Shown piece after piece: positions 1 to 18,461 of a DNA stretch of 20,755 nucleotides. Positions within the stretch are counted from its first letter, which is position 1. Each line of letters opens with the position of its first letter. The notes beneath the pieces were generated by a model. The model searched no databases. It worked only from the letters and a program-made list of their open reading frames with translations, and was not told the DNA's origin. The DNA is taken from IMG/VR virus record IMGVR_UViG_3300032242_000993, positions 1 through 20,755 of that record, one strand, 5' to 3'. The translations under genes and the position numbers were made by a program. Source of the DNA: a virus.

Positions 1-1170
1 CGCAAAGACGACAAGATCCCTGAGCTTGAGACCGCCGCCAAGGCTTTGCTGGCAGGCATCATCACCCGAGCCGAGTACGACAAGACCGTCAGTAAGCTCA
101 AGCCCGTCAAGCCCTACGAATCCATCCCCCGCCCTGCTACCGACGAGGAGGCTCTGAGCGCCCTGCATGAAAGCAAGCGCCCCAAGTGGCGTGCCGCCGA
201 CCAGTGGGAGCCGGGCCGCAATGTTGGCCTGAGACTCGACATCCCCGCTTACAGCGACCATGGCGTGTGGGTCAACTCCATCCATGATGAGGACAATGGC
301 GGCGTGGCCTACGGCCCTGTGTCGTCCGTCAGGAATGCCGTGTTTGATCCCGGCGCATCCAAAGCCCAGCGTGTGGCTACTGGCGAGGCCAACAAGTCAC
401 CCTTTGCCAAGATCAAAGGCGAGTGGGAGCCCATGACCGAGGATGAGGCCGTCGCCCACATGCAACAGCATTTGAGCCATCCTGACTATGTCCAAGTTGG
501 CTACGACCCTCGCCGCCGGGATTACTTTTATCACCGTGGTAACACCAAGAAGCCAATTACACATGCCGAGCACGTTGTTCAAATCGGCCCACTCGTGCTG
601 GCAAAGAACCCCGTGTACGGCAAGCGCAAGGACTTTGGGCTGGCTGGTGGCGGCGATGTTCACATGAACAAAGGTGGCAACTTAACCGTGGAAGAAATGC
701 GCAAGGCTATTGCCAAGGCATCTGGCTCCAATCCTCCAATGGCTGAGAAAAACCTCACGACCCTGCAAGACTTCCATACAAGCTTGGGTGACAACATCAG
801 AAAGCGTGCGGCTGACATGCAGAACATGATTGAGTCCACGCCCTTCAAGTACGATGTGGGGCATCATGTGTTTACAGAAGACAGCGCCAGAAGGAATTTA
901 CCTCCATTGAAAATTCTTTCTCGTGTAATGGTTGGCAACGACCCTATAAGAGTTGGTGGCATTGGCAGTAAGGTTGTTAAAGACCCAGCCACTGGCAAGA
1001 CCATGCGCACACCGCATGAGGCTGGGTATAGAGTAAGGCTTGAACATTCTCCAGAAAATTGGTCAGAGTTCCGCATCCCTGAGACAGCCATCAAAGGCCG
1101 AGTTGATCTGGCTCGCGGCGGCAGAGTTACCCACGCCCACCACTTAGATATTGAGGAGCGCCCCCTATGA
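1..1170 (+). CDS. Large polyvalent-type phage protein, C-terminal part (5' end outside window)
   Basis: The frame is open from base 1, so this is the 3' part of a longer gene. A TTG at 46 is only an internal leucine codon. About 389 residues are visible. The opening stretch (RAEYDKTVSKLKPVKPY, then GLRLDIPAY and an SIHDED segment) resembles modules I know from giant polyvalent proteins of uncultured phages. So does the middle part, with YDPRRRDYFYHR followed by VVQIGPLVLAKNPVYG. No catalytic motif could be assigned. Two short KGG/RGG motifs appear, HMNKGGN at 661-681 and LARGGRV near 1108, in the same style as motifs in later genes. The stop overlaps the next start as ATGA, so the two are translationally coupled and may act together. 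The family assignment rests on remembered similarity and is moderately sure; the biochemical role is unknown. Confidence 0.7.
   Translation, partial: RKDDKIPELETAAKALLAGIITRAEYDKTVSKLKPVKPYESIPRPATDEEALSALHESKRPKWRAADQWEPGRNVGLRLDIPAYSDHGVWVNSIHDEDNGGVAYGPVSSVRNAVFDPGASKAQRVATGEANKSPFAKIKGEWEPMTEDEAVAHMQQHLSHPDYVQVGYDPRRRDYFYHRGNTKKPITHAEHVVQIGPLVLAKNPVYGKRKDFGLAGGGDVHMNKGGNLTVEEMRKAIAKASGSNPPMAEKNLTTLQDFHTSLGDNIRKRAADMQNMIESTPFKYDVGHHVFTEDSARRNLPPLKILSRVMVGNDPIRVGGIGSKVVKDPATGKTMRTPHEAGYRVRLEHSPENWSEFRIPETAIKGRVDLARGGRVTHAHHLDIEERPL
1153..1158 (+). promoter_or_regulatory. Shine-Dalgarno GAGGAG for the 1081-aa gene
   Basis: GAGGAG lies 8 bases before the ATG at 1167 and inside the end of the preceding gene. 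It supports a real second start rather than a frameshifted continuation of the upstream polyvalent gene. Confidence 0.7.
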
Positions 1171-4100
1171 AGAAGCTGGTCGGCGAAGGAAAGCCACTGC
1201 ACTCTGCTGTTGATAAAGCCGCCAAGGGTTTGAAGCGCAAGGTGGGCACAGGCGCAGAGTTCATGAAGGAACTCATGGGCATCACTGGCATCAAGCCCAC
1301 TGAGATCCAAGAGCGCGGCCTCAATGAAGTTATGGGCATGCCTCGCATGACTCACGACCAGTTCATGGCAAACCTTGCCATTCGACCTACGCCAGCCATC
1401 CGTGAGAAGGTGTTGAGCGACGAAGATGAAGGTGAAGATGACCCTCGTTACCTGACCCCTGAAGAGCGCAATTACGGCCCAGACAATCAAACACATCATC
1501 GCCAGTGGACGTTACCCGGCGGCAAGAACTACCGCGAGATGTTGATCAAGTTGCCTGATGAACGCGCAGGCATGGATGAGAAACGATTTGAATTGGATGC
1601 CAAACTTCGTCGAGCCGCGCCAGAGAATCGTTCAGCCATCATGCGTCAGATGGATGAGTTGCGAAACAAGTACGAGAGCACCCCCGAGGTGTTTGAGGGT
1701 GTCGGCAGTCACTTTGGTGGCGAGCCCGGCATCCTTGCCAGCATGCGTCTGAAAGACCGCACTGTCCCCGGCGACATGGGCTACACACTGATCAACAAAA
1801 GGTCTGGCAACAAGTCTCAGCACTACGCAACCGCAGAAGAAGCGCAAGCGGCAATGCAAGGCATGCCCGAGTCCATTCGACCCATGCTATCAATCCAGCA
1901 GAGCCGTGGCCCTGACAAAAAGATGTTGCACCTTGAGGAGTTGCAGTCTGACTGGCATCAAGAAGGACGCAAACATGGCTACAAAGGAGATGTGCCGGAC
2001 TTAACGCCTGAGCAAAAAGCAAGGATAGAGGAGCTTGGAGAAAAGATTCGTAGAGGTGTTGGAACATCTGCTGAAATCGACGAAAGCAAAGCACTTAGAG
2101 ATCAGTTGTCAAAAAAATACAAAGCTGTGCCTGATGCCCCATTCAAAAAGAATTGGGAAGAGATGGCGCTCAAGCGTCTGATCCACCATGCCGCAGAAAA
2201 GGGCTACCACGGCATTGTGGTGACTCCCGGCGAAGAGCAGGCAGACCGTTACAGCTTGGCAAAGCATGTTGAAGGAATTCGCTTCACAAAACATGGAGAC
2301 AATAAATACAGCGCAGATGCTTTTAACAACGGAAGATCAATCGGCGCTGTTGAACGTGGTGACATTAACAAAATTTCCGAAATGTTTGGAAAAGAGATTG
2401 CCGACAAAATTCAAAGTCATGAAAATGAAGAAGGAATTTTGAGAGACCTTGATTTGCAAATCGGCGGCGAAGGCATGAAAGCCTTCTACGACAAAAAAGT
2501 CCCCAACATCCTTAACAGCATTGGCAAGAAGTACGGCGTAAAGACTCAGTTGCATGGAATGCCTCTGGCTAAAAAAGGCCGCGAAAGAACAGACGAAGAA
2601 TTTATAGAAGCTTTACGCAATGACAATTTAGTCAATGCCGATTACTTTCGATTGCCAGAAGAGGCAAAAGACAAGTATTCATATCATCAAGAGAATGTCG
2701 GTTTGCACCACTTCCCCATTACAGAAGAGATGCGAAAAGACGTATTAGCAAATGGCCTGCCCTTGTATTCACAAGGTGGCAAGGTGCACATGGCAGATGG
2801 CGGTGACATGGATCAAATGCAATTAGAGATAATGAACAAGAAGGCCAAAAAACCCAAGAAGCCACCAACGCCTTTACATTTTGCGCCTGCACCCGCGCTA
2901 TCAAAGAAGGAAATTGAGGCCCATGCTGAGCGCATTACACGCCAGATGGCTGGCTTGGATAACCCCAACAACAAGACCCTGCAACAGTTGGCGCGAGAGC
3001 AGAACCTGCATGTGGACATCCGTAGCGGCGGCCCCAAGTCAAACTTGCCTGTGATCGACTATTCCAAACTGGGCAAGAATGCATTCACCGTCGGCGTGCC
3101 GGGCGACCCAAGTATTGGTGGCCTTGTACCGCATGACGAGACCAATGAGCGTCACAGCATGGAGTACCCCAAGGCTGGCGAATACCTCAGAGGCATTGGT
3201 GGCGAGCAGTTGTCCAGTGAAGTGCCAATGTATGGCGGCTATATGTACGGTGGCTATGGTCATCCAGCAGGATGGGCCAGCGACCTTGGCGCAAGCCGTG
3301 GCATGTTCAATGTCGTGCAAAAGCTTGCCAAGGAAGATCCAAGCCGCGAGATTTACGGTCACTACCACAAGATGACACCTGAGTCGCTGAACCACGCCGT
3401 TCACTTCTTAGATGCCCTGATGACCCATTCGCAGTTGCACAACCTGACTGATGAACAGCGCAACATGCTGAACCACTTGATGCGCGAGGTGCAAACCACC
3501 ACGAACAAGAAGCATCGCCCATACCCATCTTTCCCCGGGTTTGAGAACCCTGCCGATGTCATGGCACACGCTCACCTGAGTTCTGACATGCGCAAGAAGA
3601 TCATCAGCCTGATTGGTAAAGAGAAGTATCTGCCCGGCGGCACTCAGCGTCTGGATGATGTGATTTTTGCCGCAAGTCATCCTGAACTGCGCAACATCGA
3701 AACTGGCGCTGGCGGCAACGCTGTGATCAAGTTCGATCCCAAGGGCAACTTGAAAAAGAGCTTGTCACCTCACCCAACCTATGGTCACGACATTCCGTCT
3801 CAAACCATCGGTCAGACGCGATACACGACTCCATTCCAAATTTTGGCCCCGCGCTCATATCACCGCGCCGTAACTCAGATTGCGTCTATGGGAAAAAAGG
3901 TTGAGCCGTTCAACATGGCGAAGATGAGCATCATTCGTGAGCCTATTGACGAGCAGTACATCAACCAGATGGGTCAATACGAGCAAGCTATGCGCAAGCG
4001 CCTTGGCTACAAGAAGGGCGGCAAGATCAAGAAGATGGCTGACGGCGGCTTGCTGAGCATCATCAAGGACAAAGGCGTGGAGGAAGCGCCCGACATGGAT

Positions 4101-4412
4101 GTCAAAGCGTTTATCATGCCCCGCGCTCCCATGTCCAACTCATTCCCCGTAGGTGGCATTCAGCAACCACCGCAGGCTCCACAAATGCCACAGCAGAGTG
4201 CGCCCGCTCCACAAGGCATGCCACCCCAAGGAGCGCCAGCACAACCTCCAAGCAACATCCTCCAGATGACGCCCCAAGGCCAAGCCATGAACGCCATCAA
4301 GCCGCCCCAAATGAAAAAAGGTGGCTCTACACGACGTGTTGCATACAATCACAGCAAAGACACCATGATGCTTGAACTCATGGACGCCAAGCGATATTCC
4401 AAAAGAAAGTAA
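1167..4412 (+). CDS. Large polyvalent protein, 1081 aa, two conserved modules
   Basis: The protein looks modular. Residues 1-85 carry a GTGAEFMKEL...EIQERGL opening. Around 170-450 sits a module with HFGGEPGI, then HLEELQSDWHQEGR (255-268), ALKRLIHHAAEKGY and GGEGMKAFYDKKVPN (about 433-447). This signature recurs in polyvalent proteins of marine and freshwater phages. A second module has FTVGVPGDPSIGG (from 640) and VPMYGGYMYGG. A Pro/Gln-rich, probably disordered stretch leads to a basic C-terminus. Two bipartite motifs occur: QGGKVHMADGG (536-546) and KKGGKIKKMADGG (949-961). KKGGS follows at 1050. Polyvalent proteins are thought to travel into the host with phage DNA and act on host defence or metabolism; that role is not visible here. 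It starts in a 4-base overlap with the upstream gene and ends 3 bases before the portal gene. Its precise activity is unknown. Confidence 0.8.
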   Translation: MKKLVGEGKPLHSAVDKAAKGLKRKVGTGAEFMKELMGITGIKPTEIQERGLNEVMGMPRMTHDQFMANLAIRPTPAIREKVLSDEDEGEDDPRYLTPEERNYGPDNQTHHRQWTLPGGKNYREMLIKLPDERAGMDEKRFELDAKLRRAAPENRSAIMRQMDELRNKYESTPEVFEGVGSHFGGEPGILASMRLKDRTVPGDMGYTLINKRSGNKSQHYATAEEAQAAMQGMPESIRPMLSIQQSRGPDKKMLHLEELQSDWHQEGRKHGYKGDVPDLTPEQKARIEELGEKIRRGVGTSAEIDESKALRDQLSKKYKAVPDAPFKKNWEEMALKRLIHHAAEKGYHGIVVTPGEEQADRYSLAKHVEGIRFTKHGDNKYSADAFNNGRSIGAVERGDINKISEMFGKEIADKIQSHENEEGILRDLDLQIGGEGMKAFYDKKVPNILNSIGKKYGVKTQLHGMPLAKKGRERTDEEFIEALRNDNLVNADYFRLPEEAKDKYSYHQENVGLHHFPITEEMRKDVLANGLPLYSQGGKVHMADGGDMDQMQLEIMNKKAKKPKKPPTPLHFAPAPALSKKEIEAHAERITRQMAGLDNPNNKTLQQLAREQNLHVDIRSGGPKSNLPVIDYSKLGKNAFTVGVPGDPSIGGLVPHDETNERHSMEYPKAGEYLRGIGGEQLSSEVPMYGGYMYGGYGHPAGWASDLGASRGMFNVVQKLAKEDPSREIYGHYHKMTPESLNHAVHFLDALMTHSQLHNLTDEQRNMLNHLMREVQTTTNKKHRPYPSFPGFENPADVMAHAHLSSDMRKKIISLIGKEKYLPGGTQRLDDVIFAASHPELRNIETGAGGNAVIKFDPKGNLKKSLSPHPTYGHDIPSQTIGQTRYTTPFQILAPRSYHRAVTQIASMGKKVEPFNMAKMSIIREPIDEQYINQMGQYEQAMRKRLGYKKGGKIKKMADGGLLSIIKDKGVEEAPDMDVKAFIMPRAPMSNSFPVGGIQQPPQAPQMPQQSAPAPQGMPPQGAPAQPPSNILQMTPQGQAMNAIKPPQMKKGGSTRRVAYNHSKDTMMLELMDAKRYSKRK

Positions 4413-7259: not shown

Positions 7260-7712
7260 ATGAGTGAAAAAGAGATTACTCTCATCGAGAGTGATGAAAG
7301 CTTGCCGTCTGCTGACGAGCTTAGCTGGGCCTTCCCCGATGTCAAACCCGGACAGAGCCCATTTGGAGGACGAGTCATCGTCCAACTCCGCCGAATCAAA
7401 CAAAAAACCGCTGGCAAGATCATCTTGGTTGAAGAGACCAAGGAGAACGAGAAGTGGAACAACATGATCGGCAAGGTCGTAGCCATCGGCCCCCTCGCCT
7501 TCAAAAATCGTGAAACCATGGCCTCATGGCCCGAGGGCTCATGGGCAGAGATTGGCGACTATGTCCGAGTCCCCAAGTGGGGCGGAGACCGTTGGGAGCG
7601 CCCTGCACCCGGCGACGACGACGAAGATCCCGTACTGTTCATGACCATCAACGACCACGAGTTGATTGCAAAGGTCACGGACAACCCCTTGTCCTTCAAA
7701 GCCTTTGTTTAA
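7260..7712 (+). CDS. Phage GroES-like co-chaperonin, 150 aa
   Basis: Residues 34-140 follow the Cpn10/GroES fold order. PFGGRVIVQL begins the barrel. It is followed by KQKTAGKIILVEET, which matches the GroES mobile loop; IIL (54-56) stands where GroES has the IVL that docks on GroEL. GKVVAIGP (71-78) and GDYVRVPKWGGDR (99-111) follow, then PVLFMTINDHELIAKV (124-139), equivalent to GroES EVLIMSESDILAIV. It is longer than host GroES (about 97 aa), with an acidic 33-residue N-terminal extension and an insertion around 79-98. Phage co-chaperonins such as T4 gp31 replace GroES on host GroEL to fold the capsid protein. The position just before the scaffold and capsid genes fits that job. No GroEL is encoded in the window, so it would have to use the host one. 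Confidence 0.85.
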   Translation: MSEKEITLIESDESLPSADELSWAFPDVKPGQSPFGGRVIVQLRRIKQKTAGKIILVEETKENEKWNNMIGKVVAIGPLAFKNRETMASWPEGSWAEIGDYVRVPKWGGDRWERPAPGDDDEDPVLFMTINDHELIAKVTDNPLSFKAFV

Positions 7713-9941: not shown

Positions 9942-10856
9942 ATGGCCGCACCAATGCGCAGTACGGACTTTCGTTCAATCGTTGAGCCTATCCTCAACGA
10001 GTGTTTTGACGGAGTCTATGACCAACGTGCCGACGAGTGGAGCCGTGTGTTCCGCGAGCAAGATGGCATCCCACGCAACTACCACGAAGAACCCGTCCTG
10101 TACGGTTTCGGAGCCGCCCCTCAGTTACCTGATGGCACTCCCGTTACCTATCAACAAGGTGGCGTCCTGTTCTTGAAACGCTATGTGTACAAGGTGTATG
10201 GCTTGGCCTTCGCTTTGACCAAAGTGTTGTACGAGGACGGTGATCACATCCGTATCGGTCAGGTTTATGCACGCCACTTGGCTCAATCTTTGGTGGAAAC
10301 CAAAGAATTGTTGTCAGCAAACGTGCTGAACACTGCGTTCAACTCCAGCTACCCCGGTGGCGACGGCGTGTCTTTGATCAGCACCGCCCACCCCATCGTC
10401 AACGGTACTGTCAGCAACCAGTTGTCCACCGCCGCTGTTTTGTCTCAAACATCTCTCGAACAGATGCTGATTCAAATCCGCCAAGCAGTTGACAACAACG
10501 GCAAGCGTATTCGTCTGGTTCCCCGCCAATTGGTGGTGGCCCCCGGCAATATCTTCCAAGCTGAAGTTTTGTTGAAATCTGTGTTGCGTACTGGCAATGC
10601 AAACAACGACATTAACCCCGTCAAGTCCATCGGTTTGTTGGACGAAGGCGCGGCTGTGTTGTCACGTTTGACTTCCAGCACCGCATGGTGGGTTCAGACC
10701 GACGCTCCCGAAGGTATGAAGCTTTTGATGCGTCGTCGTTTGGAGAAAACCATGGAAGGCGACTTCGAGACTGACTCTATGCGCTACAAGGCCACAGAGC
10801 GTTACGACGTTGGCTTCACCGACTGGCGTGCCATGTACGGCACACCCGGCGCTTAA
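9942..10856 (+). CDS. Major capsid protein, HK97 fold (Mu gpT-like group), 304 aa
   Basis: The ribosome site AAGGAG is embedded in the preceding stop. Conserved landmarks are KVYGLAFALTKVLYEDG (84-100) and ARHLAQSLVETKELLSANVL (110-129), the spine-helix region. These are followed by AFNSSYPGGDGVSLISTAHP (132-151), SLEQMLIQIRQAVD (171-184), LVPRQLVVAP (192-201), NNDINPVKSI (221-230) and a C-terminal ERYDVGFTDWRAMYGTPGA. This order matches capsid proteins of the Mu-type HK97-fold group found in many uncultured phages. The STAHP segment and the NDIN segment are the most telling. The region 50-80 would form the E-loop. A strong terminator follows at once, as often seen after capsid genes to set transcript levels. 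The assignment is confident. Confidence 0.9.
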   Translation: MAAPMRSTDFRSIVEPILNECFDGVYDQRADEWSRVFREQDGIPRNYHEEPVLYGFGAAPQLPDGTPVTYQQGGVLFLKRYVYKVYGLAFALTKVLYEDGDHIRIGQVYARHLAQSLVETKELLSANVLNTAFNSSYPGGDGVSLISTAHPIVNGTVSNQLSTAAVLSQTSLEQMLIQIRQAVDNNGKRIRLVPRQLVVAPGNIFQAEVLLKSVLRTGNANNDINPVKSIGLLDEGAAVLSRLTSSTAWWVQTDAPEGMKLLMRRRLEKTMEGDFETDSMRYKATERYDVGFTDWRAMYGTPGA

Positions 10857-12209: not shown

Positions 12210-13637
12210 ATGGCTACAAAGAAAGACAGTGCAGGCGGCTTTAGCCAAATGCCAAAGATGATGACTGATGAGCCTTCTGTCATCCTGAAGATGAAAAAGG
12301 GCGGTCATGTGCATTCAAAGCACAAAGCCAAAGAAGAGCATGGTCACAAGTCTATGCATCACATGGCTCATGGCGGTCACGCCAAGCACCATGAGGTCAT
12401 GGAAGCTGAGCACGGCGCAAGCCCCAAGAAGCCTTCTATGCATGAGCGCAAGAAAGCTATGAGTGCTTCTTTGATGAAAAAAGGCGGCAAAGTGGTTCAT
12501 AAAGCCGACGGCGGCATGATGGGCGCACCCATGGCTAACCCTCAGATGATGGCGGCAATGGCAAACCCAGCTATTCGTCAAGCTTTGGCTCGTCGTGCTA
12601 TGGCTCAGCGTGCTATGGCTGGCGCACCCGCTGGCTTGCAACCCGGCATGAAAAAGGGCGGCATGGCTAAAGGCGGCGATATGGCTCAAGACAAAGCCAT
12701 GATCAAAAAGGCTTTCAAAGAGCATGACGCACAAGAGCACAAAGGCGGCAAAGGCACTCACCTGAAGCTGAAGTCTGGCGGCGGCTTGCAAAAGAAAGCG
12801 GAAGCTTTCGAGACCATGACCACCATCGAAAATGATGAGAAGCCTTATGTGCGCACTGAAATGCATGATGGCGATAAAACTGATCGTCGTCACGGCACAA
12901 AGGGCATCAAAGAGGCCAATGCTGGCGGCTACAAGCACGGCGGTCATGCCCACAAGAAGCATCACTATGCGGCTGGTGGCACGATTGAAGGCAATGAAGG
13001 CAAATTCGTCAAGACCGAGATGCATGACGGCGACAAAGCCGACAAAGCTCATGGCACTGGTGGCATTCGCGTGAGCAACGCTGGCGGCTTTAAGCATGGC
13101 GGTAAAGCAAAACACCACTACGCTCACGGCGGCACTGTCCCCGAAGGTGATTGGGAGCACCGCCCCGCCAATGGCACACCAAAAGGCGTTGTAAACACCA
13201 AAACTGGCGAAGTTAAAGAAGCCAATGCTGGTGGCTACAAGCACGGAGGTAAAGCCTCAAAAAAAGCCTACGCCACGGGGGGCAGTGTTAACGACGCTGG
13301 TCGTCCCGTGGCATACCCTGAGCGTCCAAGAGCACGTCCTGTAGTCAACACTGCTCAGTCTGGCACTTTCAAGCATGGCGGCAAAGTCCGCCGCTTTGAA
13401 GATGGCGGCGATGCAGTAGTGGCTCGTGAACAAGCTCGTAGGAAAGCTGAGCAAGCGCAAGACAAAGCAGACAATGAAAAATTACGCAACCAAGTGCTGG
13501 ACGTTCCGCGCTCCATGTACAACGGCGTAAAAAACTTCATCAATGACAACTTTGCGCCTTCTGGAAGCTATGGCAGGACAGATAAAAATTCTGCCCCTGC
13601 TCCTGCACAAAAACGTGGCGGTAGCGTCAAAAAGTAA
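12210..13637 (+). CDS. Lys/His/Gly/Met-rich repeat protein with many GGK motifs, 475 aa
   Basis: AGGAGG sits 5 bases before the ATG. The composition is extreme. Residues 29-70 hold 12 histidines within 33-68. Then KKGGKVVHKADGG (90-102), a Met/Ala-rich helix (about 104-145), KKGGMAKGGDM (148-158) and EHKGGKG follow. Residues 205-400 form four tandem units of about 42-53 residues, each carrying a [YF]KHGG core and ending in GG: 205-257, 258-308, 309-358, 359-400. Two units share TEMHDGDK and NAGG before the KHGG core. The last unit reads FKHGGKVRRFEDGG, matching the bipartite motif of the 1081-aa protein. The C-terminus is charged and ends QKRGGSVKK. There are no membrane segments and it is probably largely disordered. 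It is strongly basic, so it could bind DNA, metal or acidic proteins. The function is unknown. It lies between structural genes and ends at a terminator, so a virion role is likely. Confidence 0.8.
   Translation: MATKKDSAGGFSQMPKMMTDEPSVILKMKKGGHVHSKHKAKEEHGHKSMHHMAHGGHAKHHEVMEAEHGASPKKPSMHERKKAMSASLMKKGGKVVHKADGGMMGAPMANPQMMAAMANPAIRQALARRAMAQRAMAGAPAGLQPGMKKGGMAKGGDMAQDKAMIKKAFKEHDAQEHKGGKGTHLKLKSGGGLQKKAEAFETMTTIENDEKPYVRTEMHDGDKTDRRHGTKGIKEANAGGYKHGGHAHKKHHYAAGGTIEGNEGKFVKTEMHDGDKADKAHGTGGIRVSNAGGFKHGGKAKHHYAHGGTVPEGDWEHRPANGTPKGVVNTKTGEVKEANAGGYKHGGKASKKAYATGGSVNDAGRPVAYPERPRARPVVNTAQSGTFKHGGKVRRFEDGGDAVVAREQARRKAEQAQDKADNEKLRNQVLDVPRSMYNGVKNFINDNFAPSGSYGRTDKNSAPAPAQKRGGSVKK
12822..13409 (+). 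repeat. Four tandem coding repeats with KHGG core
   Basis: Units begin at 12822, 12981, 13134 and 13284. The first three encode 53, 51 and 50 residues, each ending KHGG[KH]A followed by a short basic stretch and GG. Units 1 and 2 are closest (TEMHDGDK, HGT, GGI/KGI, NAGG). Unit 4 is shorter and more diverged. Confidence 0.75.
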
Positions 13638-13683: not shown

Positions 13684-16317
13684 ATGTCACAACTCTCAGT
13701 CTATACAGGCCCAACGTCAAGCACGGACAATCAACTGCGTCTTCAACAAGCGCAACGCTCAGGCGCATACGATGCTGTCGATAAGATTCGCGTCTCGACA
13801 CCTCAATCACTTATTGACACCGATTTTGAATACGGTCAACAGCCTACAAAGTGGGAACAGCTTTCCCTGCAAAACAACCGTCAATCTTTGTACTATTTGC
13901 CAAATGCCGCATTACCTGTGTCGGCAATTACAGGCAACCAAGCAAACCAGTACCAATTGGTCATTACGTTTTCTTCAAACGTAACTGTCGCCACTGGCAC
14001 TCCATTTTTCATTGAAGACACCATTGACCCTAATGCTCAAGGTTGGGCTTATGTGGTCACAGGCGTCTCTGCTGGTACGTCTATTACTGTTCAGGTACAA
14101 AACGCAGTCACCACAGCCAACAACTACTCAGCCGCATCGACATATTGCTATCAAGGCTACATATATTCAAATTGCGGAATTGCCTTGACTGGCACTACTG
14201 CATTTATTTTCAGTGGCTCTACAGTTACTGTGACCACTTCGTTCCCTCATGGATTATCGGCAAACTCCGCAATCTACGTTACAGGAACAACTGGCCCAAG
14301 CACAGCGACTCAAATTAATGGTTCTCAAATCGTAGTTACTACGCCGACTGCTAATACTTTCACTTTCACCAACGTGAATGGCACGCCATCCACCACAATT
14401 GCCAATACTGCTGGTCAAACCAACCTGTATGCACGCCCCGTGGGTTGGGTTGATTGCCATGCTTATGACGGTTCAGTCAACTTCACTGCTGGCGCAAACA
14501 CGCCAAACCAACAGTTGTTCCGTCAGACTCGTCGTTACTTCCGTTACCAGTCAGGTAAGGGCATCCAGTTTTCCACTGGAACAATCATCAAGCCGCAGAT
14601 TGCGTTTACAACACTGACATCATCTGGAACAACAGTCACTGTTACCAGTAAGACACCTCACAACTTGACTGTTGGAACTTATGTTCAAGTGTCTGGATTT
14701 GATCAAGCGGCTTATAACGGCATTTTTAAGATTACTGCTGTATCAAGCGCGCTGGTATTTACCTACACAGCTTTGTCAGCCCCTTCAGCATCGCCTGCAA
14801 CAAGCACTGTTCCTTTGATTCCTCACGTCAGCCCATATTCTTGGTATGGCGCAAGCAACAAGATTGGATTTTTTGACAGCCAAAACGGAATGTTTTTCCA
14901 GTTTGATGGTCAAACCATGTATTGCGTGCTTCGCAACAGTGTGAACCAAATTACAGGAACCGTGAGTGCAACTCAAAACAGTTCTTTGGTGACAGGTAGC
15001 AACACCCAATTCACTACTCAATTGGTTGTGGGTGATTACATTGTCATTCGTGGTCAAACACATCGGGTGACCACAATCACCAGCGACACTCAGTTGTATA
15101 TCACTCCAGAGTATCGTGGATCAACAATTGCAAATGCGCTGGTCTCCAGAGTTGTTGAGGTAAAAATTCCTCAATCGCAATGGTGGGATGTTTGCGATGG
15201 ATCAAATTCAATTTCCAATCCATCCGGCTATAACCTTGACTTGACCAAAGTGCAGATGTTCTACATGGACTACTCTTGGTATGGAGCAGGCGTTGCTCGA
15301 TTTGGCTTCCGAGCAACAAATGGTCAAATCATTTATGTGTACGGTTTTCAAAACAACAACGTGCAATATCAGGCTTACATGCGCTCAGGCAACTTGCCAT
15401 CGCATTACGAGCAAAACACTGTATTGCCTTTGACCACGATCACATCAAGCATTGGCGTTTCGGACACATCAATCAACGTGTTGAGTACAGCAGGCTTTAA
15501 TCCAGCAGGCGGAACTGCAAGGATTATTGGTAATGGCGTATCTGGCACGATTGAATATGTGACCTATACAGGCTTGACATCAACCTCGTTGACTGGATTA
15601 ACTCGTGGCGCTACAGGTGGCTCATCTGCTACTGCATTCACATATTCAGCCACAGCCCCAATCTCTGTTGAATACTCTTCGCCTGATTCAGCCGCAATGC
15701 TGTCACATTGGGGTTCATCAGTAGTTATGGACGGCGGATTTACAAACGATGTTTCGCTGATCTACAACTACGGCATGACTTCAGCCGTTTCAACAACCAG
15801 TACAACCGCAGTGCCAATCATGGCAATTCGTGTCGCACCCTCTGTTGACAACGGAACTGTTGGCACGTTGGGCGTCAAGGAAATTATCAACCGCCTGCAA
15901 TTGCAAATGCGTGAGATTGCTATGTTGACCACAACCAGTTACTTGGTGCAGTTCATTCTGAATGGAGTGATTGGCGGTACAAGTGGCTTCACTTCGTTTG
16001 CATCTCCAACACAAAACAACACCAACACAACATCAATTGTGCAAGTGTCGACCAACACCAATACGGCAACCACCATTACTGGCGGCGAGTCAATCGCGGC
16101 GTTCTTTACCAACACTGCAGGCCAAACCACTTTGGATCTGACTTCTGTTGCGCCATTTGGTAATAGCATTTTGGGTGGCGGCTTGACAAACACAGTGCCC
16201 ACAAGCCAAGCAGGAACCTATCCTGATGGCCCCGACATTTTGTATGTCACTGTCAGTCAGATTGGTTCAAACGGCACTGCATTTGCTCGTTTGTCTTGGC
16301 AAGAATCACAAGCATAA
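13684..16317 (+). CDS. Large tail or neck virion structural protein with inserted beta modules, 877 aa
   Basis: AGGTGA precedes the ATG by 4 bases. The backbone contains WVDCHAYDGSVNFTAGANTP (255-274), RRYFRYQSGKGIQFSTGT (283-300), YSWYGASNKIGFFDSQNGMF (385-404), VVGDYIVIRGQTHRV (448-462) and IPQSQWWDVCDG (495-506). FYMDYSWYGAGVARFGFR (526-543) and YMRSGNLPSHYE (565-576) follow. I associate this series with a large structural protein of uncultured podovirus-like phages. Three modules appear inserted. At about 176-236 it reads FPHGLSANSAIYVTG...NTFTFTNVNG. At about 314-365 it reads TPHNLTVGTYVQVSGFDQAAYNGIF. At about 588-655 it reads VSDTSINVLSTAGF...SLTGLTRGATGG. The C-terminal part (660-877) has KEIINRLQLQMREIAML, then a Thr/Asn-rich beta region. 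No enzyme motif was seen. The tail or neck assignment is from composition and position. Confidence 0.75.
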   Translation: MSQLSVYTGPTSSTDNQLRLQQAQRSGAYDAVDKIRVSTPQSLIDTDFEYGQQPTKWEQLSLQNNRQSLYYLPNAALPVSAITGNQANQYQLVITFSSNVTVATGTPFFIEDTIDPNAQGWAYVVTGVSAGTSITVQVQNAVTTANNYSAASTYCYQGYIYSNCGIALTGTTAFIFSGSTVTVTTSFPHGLSANSAIYVTGTTGPSTATQINGSQIVVTTPTANTFTFTNVNGTPSTTIANTAGQTNLYARPVGWVDCHAYDGSVNFTAGANTPNQQLFRQTRRYFRYQSGKGIQFSTGTIIKPQIAFTTLTSSGTTVTVTSKTPHNLTVGTYVQVSGFDQAAYNGIFKITAVSSALVFTYTALSAPSASPATSTVPLIPHVSPYSWYGASNKIGFFDSQNGMFFQFDGQTMYCVLRNSVNQITGTVSATQNSSLVTGSNTQFTTQLVVGDYIVIRGQTHRVTTITSDTQLYITPEYRGSTIANALVSRVVEVKIPQSQWWDVCDGSNSISNPSGYNLDLTKVQMFYMDYSWYGAGVARFGFRATNGQIIYVYGFQNNNVQYQAYMRSGNLPSHYEQNTVLPLTTITSSIGVSDTSINVLSTAGFNPAGGTARIIGNGVSGTIEYVTYTGLTSTSLTGLTRGATGGSSATAFTYSATAPISVEYSSPDSAAMLSHWGSSVVMDGGFTNDVSLIYNYGMTSAVSTTSTTAVPIMAIRVAPSVDNGTVGTLGVKEIINRLQLQMREIAMLTTTSYLVQFILNGVIGGTSGFTSFASPTQNNTNTTSIVQVSTNTNTATTITGGESIAAFFTNTAGQTTLDLTSVAPFGNSILGGGLTNTVPTSQAGTYPDGPDILYVTVSQIGSNGTAFARLSWQESQA
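14209..14391 (+). other. Beta module 1 (HGL type) in the 877-aa protein
   Basis: Residues about 176-236 fit the pattern TVTVTxxxPHGLSxxxxIYVTG followed by NGxxIVVxxPTANTFTF. This is the same type as module 2 further on, so the two are probably duplicated or separately acquired relatives. Confidence 0.5.
14623..14778 (+). other. Beta module 2 (HNL type) in the 877-aa protein
   Basis: Residues about 314-365 read TTVTVTSKTPHNLTVGTYVQ, then VSGFDQAAYNGIFKITAV and VFTYTALSAPSAS. The H-x-L-x-x-G-x-x-V-x-V-S-G and YNG-x-F-x-I-T landmarks are those of a widespread environmental-phage module. Confidence 0.55.
15445..15648 (+). other. Beta module 3 (TAGF type) in the 877-aa protein
   Basis: Residues about 588-655 read SSIGVSDTSINVLSTAGF, then EYVTYTGLTSTSLTGLTRGA. 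The STAGF...YTG...LTGLTRG order is common as a short module in phage tail proteins. Confidence 0.5.
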
Positions 16318-16326: not shown

Positions 16327-16485
16327 ATGCCATTGATCAAATCAAAATCCGAGAAAGCTTTCAAAAAGAATATTGCCACCGAGGTCAAAGCTGGGCGTCC
16401 CGTCAAGCAGGCCGTGGCAATTGCCTACAGCACCAAACGCGCCGCGCCACAAAAAAAGGCGGGTGGCGGAAAGTGTGAGTGGTAA
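16327..16485 (+). CDS. Small basic conserved phage protein ending in Trp, 52 aa
   Basis: The protein starts [20 protein letters not shown], continues [20 protein letters not shown] and ends [12 protein letters not shown]. The segment [30 protein letters not shown] is characteristic of a widespread family of very short phage proteins of unknown function (resembling DUF6496-like proteins, from memory). It should fold as two short helices with a basic tail. It has a strong AAGGAGG. It is the first of four consecutive short genes whose products end in tryptophan with a cysteine a little upstream. Nothing shows a catalytic role; nucleic-acid binding would fit the charge but is speculation. Confidence 0.82.
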
Positions 16486-16487
16486 TC

Positions 16488-16883
16488 ATGGCTAAAAGAG
16501 GCTTGTATGAAAATATTCATCGAAAACAAGAAAGAATCGCTGAAGGCTCTGGTGAGCGCATGCGCAAGCCGGGTGCAAAAGGCGCTCCAACTGCTGAAGC
16601 TTTCAAAGAATCAGCCAAAACAGCCAAAATGAGCAAGGGAGGCGTCTCTCTTGCCATTGGCAGGGGCGAGAAGCTTCCTGAGTCCAGAGGCGCTGGGTTG
16701 ACCGAAAAAGGCCGTGAGAAGTACAACCGGGAGACTGGTTCGCATCTGAAGGCTCCACAGCCCCAAGGCGGCGCTCGCAAGGATTCTTTCTGCGCCAGAA
16801 TGAGCGGTGTGGTCGAGCACTCCAAGGGTGACGCACCAAGAGCAAAAGCATCATTGAAACGCTGGAATTGCCCCGGCTGGTAA
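16488..16883 (+). CDS. DUF6321-like small basic phage protein, 131 aa
   Basis: The start is the ATG at 16488, 2 bases after the previous stop. A GTG at 16479 would overlap that gene and adds only three residues. The N-terminal part reads RGLYENIHRKQERIAEGSGE and RMRKPGAKGAPTAEAFKESA. Then KMSKGGVSLAIGRGEKLP follows, with a KGG motif. The C-terminal half, GLTEKGREKYNRETGSHLKA and RKDSFCARMSGVV up to LKRWNCPGW, matches the DUF6321 family as I remember it, widespread in phages and of unknown function. It is basic, has two cysteines (FCAR and NCPGW) and no membrane segment. It is the second of four short genes ending in Trp. The family match is confident; the role is unknown. Confidence 0.85.
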   Translation: MAKRGLYENIHRKQERIAEGSGERMRKPGAKGAPTAEAFKESAKTAKMSKGGVSLAIGRGEKLPESRGAGLTEKGREKYNRETGSHLKAPQPQGGARKDSFCARMSGVVEHSKGDAPRAKASLKRWNCPGW

Positions 16884-16893
16884 AGGAAAAGTC

Positions 16894-17085
16894 ATGCCAA
16901 TAGATACAACTGTTGAAACACCAGATGTGCCAGAGCCTCCCGCAGAAAGCGATGGTGGTACTGTTGGCACACAAAACTCTGTGCAACCGTTTCACCTCAA
17001 CAAGTACAAGCAAGGTGGCAAGGTTGATTTAAGCGACTGCAAGGTGTCCACGCACCAGAAAAGCAAGTCTTCTCCCAACTGGTAA
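16894..17085 (+). CDS. Small GGK-tagged protein ending in Trp, 63 aa
   Basis: AAAGGA overlaps the preceding stop and lies 6 bases before the ATG. The first 35 residues are acidic and proline-rich (ETPDVPEPPAESDGG). The last 26 hold HLNKYKQGGKVDLSDCKVST (34-53) and end KSSPNW. This C-terminal block closely parallels that of the next gene (KGGAINLDHCSVST...NSDW), while the N-termini are unrelated. It is short and hydrophilic with one cysteine. The function is unknown. The shared block looks like a tag rather than a domain because it is only about 25 residues long. Confidence 0.75.
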   Translation: MPIDTTVETPDVPEPPAESDGGTVGTQNSVQPFHLNKYKQGGKVDLSDCKVSTHQKSKSSPNW

Positions 17086-17094
17086 GGAATCATC

Positions 17095-17379
17095 ATGTTG
17101 AAATCAAGCCCAGCAGTTAAATCAGCAGTTGAAAGCGCCATGGAGCGCATGCAATCTGGCAAGTCTGATTCAAAACCAGAACCCAAGCCATCAAAACCTT
17201 ATTCTTTGTATGGCGGCCTTGGCTACGACAAGGTTATGGCAATGCAAAAAGCTGGTCACGGCTTTGGCAACTACAGCGGTGAGCCAAGGCCATGGAACAA
17301 AGCCAAGGGCGGTGCAATTAACTTGGATCATTGCAGTGTCTCAACTGCTCCCAAAGGCAAGAAAAACTCTGATTGGTAA
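17095..17379 (+). CDS. Small protein with the same C-terminal tag, 94 aa
   Basis: AAGGA in the TAAGGA junction precedes the ATG. Residues 1-35 are basic and helical then proline-rich (KPEPKPSKP). The middle (36-67) holds YSLYGGLGYDKVMAMQKAGH and EPRPWNK. Residues 71-94 read KGGAINLDHCSVST and end KGKKNSDW. The tag aligns with residues 40-63 of the preceding protein at GG, a V/I, a D/N, L, C, VST and the final Trp. Probably both are small virion or assembly accessory proteins, judged only from their position among structural genes. The function is unknown. Confidence 0.75.
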   Translation: MLKSSPAVKSAVESAMERMQSGKSDSKPEPKPSKPYSLYGGLGYDKVMAMQKAGHGFGNYSGEPRPWNKAKGGAINLDHCSVSTAPKGKKNSDW

Positions 17380-17387
17380 GGTAAAAA

Positions 17388-18461
17388 ATGGCGTACTCAG
17401 GCACAGTCGGACAAACGGTCATCACAGTCCAAAATCTGATTGATGATGGAGCACGTCGCGCCGGAAAACTGGCAGAGGAGTTGACCGACGAACAGGTTTT
17501 GTCTGCCAAGCGGTCTCTTTTTTACGTTCTCAGCAACCTGATCAACCAAGGCATTCAGTATTTCGCCATCAAAAAGCAGGTTTATGGCCTGAATGCCGAC
17601 CAGTATGAGTATTTGCTCCCTGTGGGTGGCAACGACGTCTTGAACGCCCTGTACCGACGCATGACACGCCCAATCGGTAGCTATGCAAGCTCCGCAGGCG
17701 GCACGGCTGTCTATGCTTTTGACAGCGACTTGAGCACCTACTGTCAGCAAACCAGCGCCAACGGCAACATCTCAATCACTTACGGCACGGGCTCGCCCAA
17801 CTACATTGGCTCCGTGGGCTTCATGCCATATATTTCGGGCGGCGGTAGCCAGACTTGGAACTATGTGCTGGAGACATCGTCTGACGGCTCAACTTGGAAG
17901 ACTTTGTACACCGGGACAGCCGAGACCGTGACTGACAGCCAGTGGGTTTGGAATGACATCGACCCCGGCGCGAACAACATTTACTACCGCATGCGCGCCA
18001 CGGGCGGCACTACTCTGGCTTTGCGGGAACTGTATTTCGGCACAAACAGCACCGAAATCACCATGGCTCGCTTGAATCGGGATGACTACACCAACCTGCC
18101 AAACAAGAATTTCACTGCAAACCAGCCATACCAATATTGGCTGAACCGCACCATTCCGCAAGCCACCATCACTTTGTGGCCCACCCCATCTGACCCTTAC
18201 ATTCAAATGGTGGTCTGGTATTCCTCGCAGATTCAAGATGTGGGCAAGCTGAGTGGGCAGTTGGCAATCCCTGACCGCTGGCTGATGGCAATCCAGAACA
18301 TGCTGGCCCACCAGATGGCTCAGATCCTGCCCGGCGTTGATGCGGCTCGAATTGGCTACCTCGAAGGCCAAGCCGAAAAATACTTCAACATGGCTGAACA
18401 AGAAGAACGCGACAAATCACCCATTTATTTTGCTCCAAATATCAGCGTTTACACGAGGTAA
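17388..18461 (+). CDS. Tail adaptor (P22 gp4-like or tubular A-like) with discoidin-like insertion, 357 aa
   Basis: AAGG lies 6 bases before the ATG. The N-terminal helices (12-60) read VQNLIDDGARRAGKLAEELT and SAKRSLFYVLSNLINQGI. YGLNADQYEYLLPVGGNDVL (66-85) follows. After residue 223 the backbone resumes with ITMARLNRDDYTNLPNK, QYWLNRTIPQATITLWPTPS, VVWYSSQIQDVG and LPGVDAARI. It ends EERDKSPIYFAPNISVYTR. This is the pattern of head-to-tail adaptor proteins placed under the portal of short-tailed phages. Residues about 94-223 interrupt it. They look like an F5/8 type C (discoidin) beta-sandwich, with AFDSDLSTYCQQTS, YVLETSSDGSTWKTLY and ALRELYFGTN. Such domains bind sugars, so the insert may be an exposed adhesion or decoration domain. 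Confidence 0.8.
   Translation: MAYSGTVGQTVITVQNLIDDGARRAGKLAEELTDEQVLSAKRSLFYVLSNLINQGIQYFAIKKQVYGLNADQYEYLLPVGGNDVLNALYRRMTRPIGSYASSAGGTAVYAFDSDLSTYCQQTSANGNISITYGTGSPNYIGSVGFMPYISGGGSQTWNYVLETSSDGSTWKTLYTGTAETVTDSQWVWNDIDPGANNIYYRMRATGGTTLALRELYFGTNSTEITMARLNRDDYTNLPNKNFTANQPYQYWLNRTIPQATITLWPTPSDPYIQMVVWYSSQIQDVGKLSGQLAIPDRWLMAIQNMLAHQMAQILPGVDAARIGYLEGQAEKYFNMAEQEERDKSPIYFAPNISVYTR
17667..18056 (+). other. Discoidin-like (F5/8 C) domain inserted in the tail adaptor
   Basis: Residues about 94-223 have the family landmarks: SSAGGTAVYAFDSDLSTYC at the start, ISITYGTGSPNYIGSVGF, YVLETSSDGSTWKTLY, then IYYRMRATGG and LALRELYFG at the end. The flanks MTRP and ITMARLNRDDY read as one continuous adaptor once it is removed. 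Confidence 0.65.

Follow-up and report, generated by a model that had tools for sequence, protein, structure and literature searches.

Between their head and tail genes, environmental phages carry many small genes of no known function. One such interval, within a virus record of 20,755 bp (the window), raised the question of why four consecutive genes should all encode proteins ending in tryptophan, each with a cysteine nearby. A first-pass annotation had proposed that the endings represent a selected C-terminal signature borne by otherwise unrelated proteins. Inspection of the ORFs confirmed the four Trp endings at their reported positions (Table 1), and comparison with related phages indicated that the observation had been understated. 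The phages with such endings form a freshwater group, and two contigs from betaproteobacterial MAGs suggest a Burkholderiales host.

The tagged genes of the window

The four genes lie head to tail, separated by gaps of 2 to 10 bases, in the space that separates the head genes from the tail adaptor gene (the slot). As the first-pass annotation had stated, their N-terminal parts belong to different families. Gene 1 has a phrog_2423 body; gene 2, most likely starting at the ATG at 16488, joins an N-terminal phrog_16028 module to DUF6321 and terminates with KRWNCPGW; genes 3 and 4 gave no family match in Pfam or PHROG. These last two carry two versions of one common 23-residue tag, starting with GGK or GGA. 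Four relatives of gene 4 were found on viral contigs, all matching its last 23 to 25 residues only, and it was thus the C-terminus that was first seen as the conserved part. Searches for solved-structure relatives of genes 1 and 2, of the helical A3 body family and of the capsid protein produced none that was convincing; a model of A3 gave 0 matches at E<=0.001 in fold searches.

Two features of the neighbouring genes were recorded in passing. Residues 102-212 of the tail adaptor correspond to an F5/8 type C (discoidin-like) domain inside an SU10-type adaptor. Far upstream, two large proteins (46-1170 and 1167-4412 of the window) have GGK motifs in their interior and hardly any recognised domain; we take them to resemble the injected multi-domain (polyvalent) proteins of phages.

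Table 1. Position of the tagged genes, their neighbours and examples of the second tag (window coordinates unless a locus is named)
Feature	Coordinates	Strand	Basis or remark
Capsid protein	9942-10856		Major capsid protein gene upstream of slot
GGK-repeat protein, [YF]KxGGK repeats	12210..13637	+	Motif in common with tags
Virion structural gene (phrog_5838)	13684-16317		Upstream neighbour of tagged genes
Tagged gene 1, 52 aa, phrog_2423 body, end GGGKCEW	16327..16485	+	ORF, PHROG match
Tag of gene 1, GGGKCEW	16462..16482	+	Absent from homologues outside lineage
Tagged gene 2, 131 aa, phrog_16028 module + DUF6321 (PF19846), end RWNCPGW	16488..16883	+	Pfam/PHROG
Terminal CPGW of gene 2	16869..16880	+	PGW is a lineage-specific extension past the family's usual last Cys
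Tagged gene 3, 63 aa, no known family, end DCKVSTHQKSKSSPNW	16894..17085	+	ORF
Tag of gene 3, 23 residues, GGKVDLSDCKVSTHQKSKSSPNW	17014..17082	+	
Tagged gene 4, 94 aa, end HCSVSTAPKGKKNSDW	17095..17379	+	N-terminus resembles helical A3 body family
Tag of gene 4, 23 residues, GGAINLDHCSVSTAPKGKKNSDW	17308..17376	+	Relatives match last 23-25 residues only
Tail adaptor, untagged	17388..18461	+	Fixed downstream border of slot
DGCA-tag example, L217	4578-5168		
DGCA-tag example, L221	5524-7973		
DGCA-tag example, L241	4750-5920	reverse	

Tryptophan endings are confined to the slot

The frequency of terminal Trp was determined in 80 loci gathered by adaptor homology, blind to the tag, to which the window and three other loci were added. 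Genes were called with a purpose-written coding-potential caller and are computed, not curated, calls. Control positions, at least 10 genes upstream or from the adaptor onward, came from the same contig set as the slot genes. Loci retrieved through DUF6321 are biased because that query itself ends in Trp; the figures given here are those of the adaptor-based loci. Immediately upstream of the adaptor (position -1), 77 of 79 genes ended in Trp, followed by 49/75 at -2, 32/68 at -3 and 16/60 at -4, as against 5/557 at the control positions. The comparison between position -1 and the controls led us to reject chance as the source of the endings, in agreement with the first-pass annotation, which had also suggested looking for the signature in other short phage genes near tail adaptors; the probability of four out of four by chance is about 6e-9, before allowing for multiple looks. 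Each interval holds from 1 to 7 tagged genes, nearly every gene there obeying the Trp rule, and the principal families of head genes in the same operon lack terminal Trp.

When bodies were clustered after removing the last 26 residues, 24 clusters were found to contain proteins ending in Trp, one of which also took in the GGK-repeat protein through similarity; outside this mixed cluster a single Phe is the sole exception to terminal Trp. More than 20 unrelated body families, nearly all with terminal Trp, thus occupy the slot. The adaptor tree (106 dereplicated rows; the loci are not independent) is deep and has W endings spread throughout. Four Phe endings fall on 4 separate branches, one ending is Ile, and the Cys endings form a single clade of two (L145 and L150). 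A fifth Phe ending occurs at position -2 of L084. Phe is encoded by TTT or TTC in each of the five cases, and conversion from TGG takes two base changes. A few members of the lineage are tagless, L071 among them. Gene content differs in 35 of the 178 pairs of loci whose adaptors are at least 90% identical. The first-pass annotation had staked its proposal on the conservation of Trp among close homologues and on its presence in more than one of the four families; Trp proved to be conserved among close homologues and present in all four.

The composition of the tag was analysed in 105 dereplicated proteins picked because they end in W and contain a GG motif, a choice that fixes the final Trp in this set, so that its conservation rests on the adaptor-locus and cluster counts. 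A Cys lies within the last 24 residues in 85 of the 105 proteins, and Cys accounts for 96 of the 2,415 residues in tags and for 2 of the 11,932 in bodies. Tags carry a net charge of +4.5 each, compared with about +1.1 for 24 residues of body. The form seen most often is [YF]xxGGKINLKDCxVSTAPKGKKNxNW, with GGKVKKSCW, GGSSCW and GGKCEW as shorter versions. In the A3 family, GGK and the final Trp alone are invariant within the tag region. AlphaFold modelling of A3 yielded block means of 76-88 for the body helices and about 50 for the tag, with almost no secondary structure, suggesting that the tag is probably disordered, without a fixed structure.

Families represented in the slot also occur elsewhere: DUF6321, phrog_16028 and phrog_2423 are found in cyanophages, pelagiphages and PB1-like phages. 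Outside the lineage, DUF6321 proteins end in RWKC, RWNC, RWNCN, RWNCGK or similar, without terminal Trp, and phrog_2423 proteins have Lys-rich tails, KSCS or another tail, none being GGKCEW. Since these homologues of genes 1 and 2 are devoid of Trp ends, -PGW and -GGKCEW are additions made in this lineage. Tags have also been exchanged. Loci L018 and L020 have a common body, mostly 90-100% identical in DNA up to TATGCCAAGGGTGGCAA (YAKGGK); past this point L020 has a KKKSHPNW-type end, which in L018 is the end of the next, unrelated gene. Thus, a near-identical body bears two different tags, a natural swap at the YAKGGK codons. Conserved where the bodies are not, added to pre-existing families and swapped between bodies, the ending strongly supports the notion of a selected C-terminal signature. 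When IMG/VR was scanned with a tag-core pattern that contained no Trp, 22 contigs matched; those inspected all belong to this lineage and have tagged genes in the same slot, with Trp ends and one Phe. A limited literature search found no description of such tags, and DUF6321 was not named in the literature searched. The cryo-EM study of cyanophage P-SCSP1u describes no decoration proteins, and a term search of it yielded nothing on that phage's DUF6321 gene.

A sister lineage bears another tag in the slot

In a sister lineage, whose capsid protein is related, the small genes preceding the adaptor share a different end, ADGCAx[RK]GKT[RK]GxMV, or in fuller form GG[KS]..SASSRADGCAx[RK]GKT[RK]Gx[MF]V. 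Among the matches listed, 86 of 101 ORFs have the DGCA motif at precisely 14 residues from the C-terminus, and at least two DGCA-tagged genes are present in 20 of 80 contigs. This tag was seen on L205-L284, in adjacent small genes with unrelated bodies. It resembles the W tag in its pre-adaptor position, GG[K/S] linker, single Cys, fixed distance to the end and unrelated bodies; it differs in sequence, in having no terminal Trp and in belonging to a different phage lineage, and it is far commoner than the W tag in IMG/VR. Body and label proved separable. A DUF6321 protein of the ..RINKSLRAWNC type has a PGW end in L191 (W lineage) and continues as ADGGYVSSADGCATQGKTRGRFV in L217, and similarly in others; a module with the motif MPSKSxAQHxxMEA is likewise found with either kind of end. 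The label thus follows the phage lineage.

What the tag may do

Selection for the ending might in principle operate on the nucleic acid, with a signal in the DNA or RNA of the gene junction (TGGTAAGGA for translational coupling, for example) forcing the Trp codon. Indeed, TGGTAAGGA is found at many junctions, with the next start 8-10 bases on. However, the stop following the Trp codon may be TAA (122 cases), TGA (14) or TAG (2), the bases downstream of it vary, as does the spacing (mostly 2 to 11), and synonymous codons for Gly, Cys, Asn and Pro vary at -2 and -3. This variation indicates that selection acts on the peptide and, along with the lack of terminal Trp in upstream genes of the same operon, led us to reject a DNA-level motif for the most part; we consider it highly improbable. 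Among peptide-level alternatives, the ends could be functionless leftovers, inherited when new bodies recombined into the end of an older gene. The YAKGGK swap shows that such exchange occurs, and many tags are clearly homologous, yet tags that have diverged widely keep Trp and one Cys, departures from Trp lead to Phe, the Cys clade or loss of tags rather than to one-step residues, and the -PGW of DUF6321 and the -KCEW of phrog_2423 are not copies of the long tag. This makes an origin as leftovers unlikely. We likewise doubt, to much the same extent, that the tag is a maturation signal in which a head protease would cut at or near GG[K/S], the Cys...Trp end, recognised by the protease or a scaffold, being then removed: GGK motifs are present within the GGK-repeat protein and the large upstream proteins, and tag length varies with GGK and Trp constant, but gene 2 has no GGK ahead of its CPGW end.

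The first-pass annotation had listed protection from proteases among possible functions, next to recognition and partner binding. An ending at the extreme C-terminus might block host C-terminal proteases, or be read by one, and small basic proteins with flexible tails are natural protease targets. We know of no rule, however, tying terminal Trp and Cys to stability; other small or structural genes of the same phages lack the ending, and protection would explain neither the Cys, nor the GGK linker, nor the unrelated ending in the same slot of the sister lineage. Nothing specific was found to support it and a role in stability appears distinctly improbable. Recognition or partner binding fits best.

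We therefore lean, with slightly better than even confidence, towards the tag being a lineage-specific, exchangeable C-terminal docking signal that recruits varied accessory proteins to a common head or neck partner. Variable bodies, a short label, a fixed slot, gene turnover and a lineage-dependent label are as expected of a docking or loading signal. We postulate that the interval between head genes and tail adaptor would serve as an exchange slot for small accessory proteins, each ending in a basic, probably disordered docking tag composed of a GG[K/S] linker, a single cysteine in most cases, and tryptophan (in rare cases phenylalanine) at the C-terminus. A single partner would read the tag, most probably a component present in many copies in the assembling head or neck; the unrelated bodies would thereby reach the virion, either inside, to be ejected with the DNA, or on the surface. 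Body and tag could have spread partly by recombination at gene ends.

Known systems offer parallels, none of them a family match. The capsid targeting signal of phage T4 is N-terminal and is removed by the head protease. T4 internal proteins are small and highly diverse, with only a short targeting sequence in common (PMC3012670). Both systems thus couple a short common sequence to diverse small proteins encoded among phage head genes, in a set that turns over fast; they differ in sequence and in that the W tag is C-terminal in every case, and T4 proteins are internal to the head whereas W-tagged proteins are known here from their genes. Encapsulin targeting (cargo-loading) peptides are short and C-terminal, with the consensus SDGSLGIGSLKRS (PMC8346489). 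Like the W tag, they are carried by unrelated proteins encoded near an HK97-fold shell gene, but their consensus is hydrophobic while the W tag is basic (GGK...C...W). McdB associates with a large polyhedral shell of protein through an invariant Trp in its C-terminal region, and other aromatic residues substitute partly for this Trp (PMC11321042), reminiscent of the Phe endings in the slot. McdB, however, is a single host family for carboxysome positioning, with no GGK/Cys tag common to unrelated proteins; it was absent from the Pfam matches of the scanned proteins and serves as a mechanistic analogue only.

A common exchangeable tag would mark such small genes as cargo of one sorting route and provide a simple rule for finding more; it would turn unrelated orphan genes into one question and make the part of the particle that reads the tag testable. 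The commoner second tag in the slot of another lineage suggests a general principle. Phages of this capsid type may possess a C-terminal address-label system, with one label and one cognate head or neck receptor per lineage, for loading fast-changing cargo, an idea that we regard as tentative and somewhat short of probable. If true, it would be a phage counterpart of encapsulin cargo peptides, and a tag together with a place in the slot would predict virion cargo among unknown phage genes.

Two gene products were considered as partners. The last residue of the GGK-repeat protein is Cys in 57 of 96 relatives, with few Cys elsewhere, and among GenBank phages the protein occurs in MW202545 only. 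Caulobacter phages whose capsid protein is 78% identical lack tagged genes, and the repeat protein was not detected in them, making it a candidate hub. L071, however, has the repeat protein but no tagged genes; the protein may be a hub or a sibling of the tagged proteins. The tagless Caulobacter phages also indicate that the capsid protein alone does not require tags. In the capsid protein, 71 of 76 members of the W-tag lineage retain Cys21, which is missing from the DGCA-tag lineage, a Caulobacter phage and L071. Cys21 was not adopted as a disulfide partner because it is also missing in the tagged loci L126, L146, L147 and L155, and because in the DGCA lineage the capsid protein mostly contains no Cys at all. 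Upstream of the capsid gene, a 150-aa gene (window 7260-7712) has a counterpart in MW202545 annotated as a 10-kDa chaperonin subunit (GroES type), and a gene of this type precedes the capsid gene in other relatives too.
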